NCBI RefSeq assembly: GCF_016863515.1
Contig: NZ_BOPA01000025.1
Span: forward strand, 1 to 64,000
Direction of reading: 5' to 3'
Length of the DNA: 64,000 nucleotides
Source: Micromonospora gifhornensis
Lineage (GTDB): Bacteria; Actinomycetota; Actinomycetes; Mycobacteriales; Micromonosporaceae
The notes below the pieces were generated by a model, which did not search any database, was not told the origin of the DNA, and saw nothing but the letters and a program-made list of their open reading frames with translations. This document shows positions 22,334-22,702 of the stretch, piece after piece (position 1 is the first letter of the stretch; every line of letters starts with the position of its first letter). The translations under genes and the position numbers were made by a program.

Positions 22334-22702
22334 ATGGCCATCGAAGTTCGCATCCCCACCATCCTGCGCAGCTACACCGGCGGCGCGAAGGTCGTCGAGG
22401 GCAGTGGCGACACCCTGAGCGACCTGCTCGCCGACCTTGACTCCCGGCACGCCGGGCTGCGGGCGCGGCTGGTCACCGACGCGGGCGCGCTGCACCGCTT
22501 CGTCAACGTCTACGTCAACGACGAGGACGTACGCTTCCTCGGCGCGCTGGACGCCAAGCTCTCCGACGGCGACAGCGTCACCATCCTGCCGGCCGTGGCC
22601 GGCGGCGCGTTCGGCTTCGCCGCCGCTGCGGCGATCGCACAGCACGGCGCCGCCGCCGCGGCGATCGCACAGCACAGCCGTACGCCCGTCACCGCCGGCT
22701 GA
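22334..22702 (+). CDS. cysO: Sulfur-carrier protein CysO with unusual C-terminal tail
   Basis: Ubiquitin-fold ThiS/MoaD-type carrier; its C-terminal glycine becomes a thiocarboxylate that donates sulfur to CysM. Residues 1-91 match the family and reach the diagnostic LPAVAGG (Gly90-Gly91), where the protein normally stops. Here 31 more residues follow (alanine-rich, with AAIAQHGA and AAIAQHSR repeats). A free Gly91 carboxylate is needed for activation, so the tail must be cleaved or the pathway altered. AGGAG at 22320-22324 gives a strong ribosome site for ATG 22334. Confidence 0.93.
22621..22680 (+). repeat. 30-bp tandem duplication inside the cysO tail
   Basis: Two adjacent 30-bp units share the core GCGGCGATCGCACAGCAC (22628-22645 and 22658-22675) and encode the two alanine/AIAQH repeats of the CysO tail. 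It keeps the frame. Confidence 0.9.

Follow-up and report, generated by a model that had tools for sequence, protein, structure and literature searches.

The sulfur carrier CysO forms its thiocarboxylate on the last glycine of its Gly-Gly (GG) motif, according to the accessible text of PMC3227635. A CysO with residues beyond this glycine should therefore stay outside the pathway until it is cut. The cysO gene of Micromonospora gifhornensis encodes such a protein, which raises two questions: how its working end is freed, and whether the extra residues have a role of their own. We addressed both in a 64,000-nucleotide stretch of this genome, hereafter the window, and in the CysO loci of related genomes. 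The tail covers the working end and very probably has to be removed.

The cysO gene of the window

CysO was confirmed to run past LPAVAGG, as the sequence-only reading had described, by 31 residues (codons 22607-22699) that lie within the same ORF as the core (Table 1). The core carries a ThiS-type beta-grasp domain with a terminal GG (PF02597) and aligns through to the last residue of Mycobacterium tuberculosis CysO (3dwg_C), which stops at GG. The gene clusters with mec and cysM, and the genome encodes one ThiF-family protein over the cut-off (L425), which combines PF00899 with a rhodanese domain (PF00581) in a single chain, as in MoeZ. By its domain, its cluster and the presence of this MoeZ-type E1 (ThiF plus rhodanese), the protein belongs to CysO. 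Considering that the product does not end at GG but continues for 31 residues, this CysO is not classed with the uncapped M. tuberculosis type. The GG was aligned in 71 CysO proteins that had been picked via the same motif, so that its invariance among them holds by construction.

Table 1. Positions of the features of the cysO locus in the window
Feature	Position	Strand	Basis or remark
clpS (domain span given)	21000..21230	+	NF000668, E 2.2e-43; PF02617
DUF2017/AosR-like gene (start approximate)	21233..21727	+	PF09438, E 4.5e-47; AosR model far under cut-off
mec, JAMM/Prok-JAB metalloprotease, proposed processing enzyme	21782..22270	+	Pfam PF14464, E 1.7e-31
JAMM zinc motif of Mec, HSHTATEAYPSRTD	22016..22057	+	Sequence; H-S-H-x7-S-x2-D intact
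cysO ORF	22334..22702	+	122 aa; begins MAIEVR, core end TILPAVAGG, then 31-aa tail
cysO core, ubiquitin-like (ThiS family) domain, end LPAVAGG	22334..22606	+	Pfam PF02597, E 1.1e-17, residues 5-91
Gly90-Gly91 codons, predicted cleavage point directly after	22601..22606	+	Alignment
Proximal tail, 10 residues, conserved	22607..22636	+	pN/pS 0.086; Ala codons vary synonymously
Two tandem 30-bp units	22619..22678	+	Tandem Repeats Finder and in-register comparison
Distal tail, variable	22637..22699	+	pN/pS 0.66; species differ in length
cysO stop (TGA) and 11-nt gap before cysM	22700..22713	+	Gap 9-14 nt in 159/159 genus loci
cysM, PLP-dependent cysteine synthase	22714..23679	+	Pfam PALP, E 6.7e-66; NCBIfam cysKM, E 1.4e-102, 343.1 bits, one bit under cut-off

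The tail contains a repeat that had been taken for a perfect in-frame 30-bp duplication. The repeat is in frame, each unit encoding ten residues, but the copies are not identical: compared in register, the 30-mers at 22619-22648 and 22649-22678 differ at 2 of 30 positions. Tandem Repeats Finder placed 1.9 copies of the 30-bp unit, with 96% matches, at 22618-22675. Searches of the window with a 21-base piece of the repeat (up to three mismatches) and with a 14-base piece returned only the local copies, and a 16-base piece had no further exact match in the whole genome. With one or two mismatches, this piece matched 18 further genome places, against 7 for the reversed pattern, none of the 18 being judged a copy of the unit. 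A dispersed repeat was thus rejected.

Past GG, no early stop was seen in either of the other two frames. A frameshift or a nearby stop as the source of the tail, which the sequence-only reading had also discounted, is thereby rejected. The TGAGG at the cysO stop may have a second role as the ribosome-binding site of cysM. In the AlphaFold model, the block means are 93-98 up to residue 80 and 80 for residues 81-90. Confidence is below 50 at residues 90-95 and near 58 in a helix at residues 96-114. The low values at 90-95 are compatible with a flexible joint, and the model would suit a helical tail that can be detached, of which a confidence near 58 is no proof.

The tail within Micromonospora

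All 160 Micromonospora genomes (GTDB sense, window genome included) contained a CysO match, and all 160 loci were examined. The query was the window CysO with its tail, and the first 30 loci lean to similar tails; this was corrected by adding the other 130 genomes. Loci were recognised by the motif ...P[A/V][V/I/L][A/S]GG or close variants, so that genes without it would be missed. One locus (L248, genome G145) has a frame slip at GG, the shifted frame encoding a 14-residue tail sequence, and is excluded from the genus counts, which leaves 159 readable genes.

Between 2 and 67 residues follow GG in these genes, with a median of 28. The tail spans 8-67 residues in 158 of the 159 genes and 18-67 residues in 156, and the one remaining gene has two residues. 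It starts with AFGF or ALGF in 153 genes, and its first ten residues read A[F/L]GFAAAAAI. The tail is thus no oddity of one genome but is genus-wide, with relatives in most of the neighbouring genera seen. The sequence-only reading had allowed for a sequencing error hiding a stop after Gly91. Tails of at least eight residues in 158 of 159 readable genes exclude this, and the recurrence of the same AFGF/ALGF start, which goes beyond chance, refutes it. Nothing in the window genome points to such an error, the frame slip of L248 being that of another draft genome, and we give a sequencing or assembly error practically no weight.

Aligning CysO from related genomes, the check named at the outset, did reveal variation in both the tail and its repeats. 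At least two ten-residue units are found in 53 of the 159 genes, with a maximum of five. The 30-bp duplication can therefore no longer be held to be the origin of the tail, since the shared part is its first ten residues and the repeats vary among species. The long tail can also be lost: only AR follows GG in L244 and eight residues do so in L235, with cysM and mec present at both loci. The genome of L244 has a second CysO copy (L249, around 1501-1803) near a condensation-domain gene. This copy has a frame slip at GG, and its shifted frame reads ALGFAAAAAL.

Selection was estimated from 157 genus genes with at least ten tail residues, arranged in 78 disjoint nearest pairs; the distal tail could be compared in the 21 pairs whose tails are equally long. 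The pN/pS ratio was 0.153 for the core (bootstrap 0.129-0.178) and 0.086 for tail residues 1-10 (0.045-0.139), both from 78 pairs, and 0.66 for the distal tail (0.49-0.99). In the same 21 equal-length pairs the core gave 0.153 and residues 1-10 gave 0.131. With alternative pair choices, the core ratio was 0.20-0.25, residues 1-10 gave 0.04-0.16 and the distal tail 0.81-1.09. Judged by these ratios, residues 1-10 are constrained about like the core, or more, and the distal tail is under relaxed, near-neutral selection. The Ala codon at tail position 7 is GCC in 45, GCA in 40, GCG in 39 and GCT in 18 of the 157 genes, which indicates that the peptide and not the DNA is conserved. Tail length was unequal in 57 of the 78 nearest pairs, the commonest non-zero difference being 10 residues (12 pairs). 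Copies of the ten-residue unit share 90% DNA identity within a gene, compared with 82% for first copies and 74% for second copies between genes, which fits repeated local duplication.

These patterns bear on the possibility that the tail is a tolerated by-product without a role of its own. If Mec trims anything past GG, the stop could have drifted downstream until it reached the start region of cysM. This explanation is compatible with trimming by Mec, and we consider it possible, though unlikely. A near-neutral distal tail (pN/pS 0.66-1.09), unequal tail lengths in most nearest pairs, and the genome with AR only all speak for it, as does the cysO stop, which stays 9-14 nt ahead of cysM in 159 of 159 loci at any tail length. 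However, a pure by-product should not show residues 1-10 constrained about like the core, with Ala codons that change synonymously.

The tight spacing between the cysO stop and the cysM start would also suit extra bases that act as RNA, through a hairpin or translational coupling to cysM, and not as peptide. One of five folded tail regions, which is repeat-rich, reached a z-score of -2.6, but the remaining four had z-scores of -0.5 to -1.4. Since the spacing is kept at any tail length from 2 to 67 residues, it does not depend on the tail, and residues 1-10 are conserved at the amino-acid level. We therefore regard a role as RNA as very improbable.

Capped CysO across the order

We then drew an even sample of 121 genomes from the order, 98 of which had a CysO match, 11 in the genus and 87 outside. 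The loci outside the genus number 86, from 85 genomes, with G165 (40% identity) and G172 (a 39-residue match) left out. One locus with the tail M (L303) was read by eye and is counted here. Residues past GG are encoded at 47 of the 86 loci (46 of 85 by script parse alone), and 11 have at least eight. Capping is thus common in CysO outside Micromonospora, and a GG end does not define CysO overall.

Each of the 26 genus-by-residue classes of this sample has S, A, C, M or D directly after GG, and T and G were each found once among the 80 loci of named organisms. Past the stop of uncapped genes, the first in-frame codon falls within A/S/C/M/D/T/G in 25 of 53 cases. The difference between 25/53 and 26/26 (Fisher p 5.9e-7) is descriptive, as the set was chosen post hoc and the classes share ancestry. 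Easy mutation of a stop to a Cys or Ser codon could be part of the cause of this bias. Ten of the 47 capped loci end in GG-C. Among the loci of named organisms, such ends were seen in 11 of Blastococcus, Modestobacter and Geodermatophilus (L065, L068, L069, L075, L076, L083, L086, L088, L090, L096 and L102). A gene-encoded GG-Cys has the sequence of the CysO-cysteine adduct, which these genes spell out directly.

A related tail start, A[F/L][G/A][F/L], is present in 15 of 16 loci grouped as other Micromonosporaceae (Actinoplanes, Paractinoplanes, Asanoa, Dactylosporangium, Hamadaea, Rugosimonospora, M. pattaloongensis and one MAG), the exception being the MAG L118. In contrast, M alone follows GG in three genomes of g3, a genus of the same GTDB family (L281, L303 and L322), and in the Glycomyces loci, which argues against a fully family-wide long tail. 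Short and long caps in many order-mates are what a tolerated by-product would leave behind, whereas the related start in these 15 loci argues against one.

Some order-mates have tails that repeat the end of the core. Copies of (V/T)AGG make up the repeat tails of L346 (DSRAQVAGGDSRAQVAGGSGA) and L270 (AAQKGTAGGAAQKGTAGG), a single x-VAGG unit occurs in the tails of L340, L350 and L320, and the MAG L056 has a tail with a 10-residue glycine-motif repeat sequence. Judged from their unlike sequences, the (V/T)AGG tails likely arose independently. Their repeats are possible serial cut sites, as Mec may also cut within them if AGG is what it recognises.

Proposed processing by Mec and known capped carriers

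The gene order in the window is clpS, a DUF2017/AosR-like gene, mec, cysO and cysM, followed by an MBL-fold phosphodiesterase-like gene, rph and rdgB. Other tandem repeats of the window are a perfect 57-bp tandem (1.9 copies, 25473-25583) between rph and rdgB, which shares 8 bp with the 3' end of rph, and short arrays at 13081-13142 (8 bp x 7.8) and 63034-63193 (23 bp x 4.1 and 2.9).

Mec is the sole PF14464 (Prok-JAB) match in the genome, and its gene lies directly upstream of cysO. Its best NCBIfam match is the desampylase model NF041370 (E 6e-21), under the cut-off of that model. The residue pattern that we take to be the JAMM zinc motif (Table 1) is identical in 158 of the 159 genus loci, with a one-residue variant in the remaining locus; its distance upstream of cysO is 270-315 nt throughout the 159. 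In the order sample, the motif is upstream at 85 of the 86 loci, capped or uncapped; the miss (L309) is close to a contig end. Considering that Mec also accompanies uncapped CysO, the co-occurrence of cap and Mec is uninformative on a processing link. When Mec of Micromonospora (60 of 172 sampled) was compared with outgroups, 29 positions passed the cut-off, several of them at the poorly aligned C-terminus. The comparison is confounded with ancestry and carries no weight here.

Other sulfur carriers served as controls. In an even sample of 31 genus genomes, ThiS ends exactly at GG in 28 of 28 genes and MoaD in 30 of 30. Three genomes had no ThiS match, and the MoaD of G091 and a second MoaD match of G088 were left out. 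Second carriers ending in LPSVAGG or near variants were found in 13 genomes, including three of Micromonospora, and none of the ten that were parsed is capped (L358-L360 left out).

Together, the sole Prok-JAB match, the JAMM motif ahead of cysO at all 159 loci, the untailed ThiS and MoaD, and published capped carriers that depend on JAMM proteases suggest Mec as the processing enzyme. The proposal of the sequence-only reading that Mec matures the precursor fits this evidence, with the cut, its place, its protease and the role of tail residues 1-10 as the parts that we infer. That Mec cuts pro-CysO after Gly91 is the reading with the fewest assumptions, and we put the probability of this cut, its place and its protease at about 80%.

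The cysO product would then be an inactive precursor, pro-CysO, that Mec cleaves after Gly91, exposing the GG carboxylate. MoeZ (E1 plus rhodanese) would adenylate and thiocarboxylate the freed GG, and CysM, which is expected to use the CysO thiocarboxylate, would load phosphoserine. Mec hydrolyses the CysO-cysteine adduct at the bond that follows the same last glycine (PMC3227635, accessible text), so that the release of cysteine in each later turn would be the same kind of cut. Tail residues 1-10 would be a selected element on the primed side of the cut. The distal tail would be discarded, so that it could drift, and lengthen through tandem duplication, with little constraint.

Another protease, such as Clp, the proteasome or a carboxypeptidase, could trim the tail instead, with Mec limited to CysO-Cys. 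Ala-rich C-termini can be degrons, and clpS lies two genes upstream of mec. Yet an exact cut after Gly91 is required, and published members of the family to which the sole Prok-JAB match belongs cut in this way. ThiS and MoaD being untailed also argues against such a protease, which we consider improbable.

Several observations stand against processing by Mec. In Streptomyces platensis, deletion of ptmS2, which encodes a capped carrier, left the thioacids in place, for which the authors propose redundancy with ptmS3 (PMC6006322, accessible text). The long tail is lost in L244 and L235, g3 genomes have M only, and the confidence of the tail helix is near 58.

Under processing by Mec, the most likely role of tail residues 1-10 is presentation to Mec or keeping the precursor inactive and soluble; they may also be a degron. 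A bolder and tentative suggestion treats the proximal block as a propeptide in its own right, one that makes the supply of CysO depend on Mec and hence on zinc. It could be a Mec-docking helix or an Ala-rich degron against uncut precursor, with the repeats tuning length, and order-mates such as L346 would have separate repeat tails that copy the cut motif (V/T)AGG.

Earlier work has described capped sulfur carriers that need a JAMM protease (PMC6006322, accessible text). The Micromonospora locus resembles them in encoding residues past GG and, in the same cluster, a JAMM protease with an intact zinc motif. In S. platensis, the GG of PtmS2 and PtmS3 is covered (MV or C), and the JAMM gene ptmS1 is clustered with ptmS2. 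Deletion of ptmS1 abolished the thioacid products, for which capped carriers were proposed, so that the protease is genetically needed (PMC6006322). These caps are one or two residues long, whereas 156 of the 159 Micromonospora genes encode 18-67 residues, which start with a conserved block and differ in their repeats. In thioquinolobactin biosynthesis, the JAMM protease QbsD exposes the GG of a capped carrier (cited in PMC6006322). M. tuberculosis CysO-CysM-Mec has the same gene set and a core that aligns to its last residue (PMC3227635, accessible text; 3dwg_C), but the solved CysO chain is untailed. HvJAMM1 removes a long extension right after the GG of a ubiquitin-like protein. In SAMP1-MoaE the cut falls precisely behind the final Gly of SAMP1, and active MPT synthase was reported (PMC4443979, accessible text). 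Unlike pro-CysO, this substrate is an engineered linear fusion in an archaeon and belongs to the molybdopterin pathway.

A literature search covering titles and abstract openings, subscription papers and supplements apart, returned none on long or repeat-bearing CysO tails among the matches listed. The cysO of one Micromonospora paper (PMC9290621) is, in its accessible text, an unrelated pentapeptide-repeat resistance gene. What appears to be new, set beside the known capped carriers and read here from sequence alone, is a long, selected, repeat-expanding propeptide on CysO. The tails of 2 to 67 residues within one genus form a natural series for asking which residue and length a JAMM protease accepts after GG. 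The same series bears on whether bacterial ubiquitin-like propeptides regulate or are merely tolerated. In practice, expressed actinobacterial CysO may be inactive unless trimmed.

Further systems offer likenesses of other kinds. QbsE is the capped carrier of the thioquinolobactin siderophore pathway and, unlike Micromonospora CysO, has a short cap. In the Wolinella HcyS/HcyD system, which belongs to a methionine pathway, a JAMM protease removes an extra carrier residue, the cap being very short. Eukaryotic ubiquitin, SUMO and ATG8 precursors carry a C-terminal propeptide that is cut after Gly, usually by other protease classes, and serve conjugation, not sulfur transfer. If tail residues 1-10 do act as a propeptide with a job of their own, Micromonospora CysO would be a bacterial parallel to the ubiquitin and SUMO precursors.
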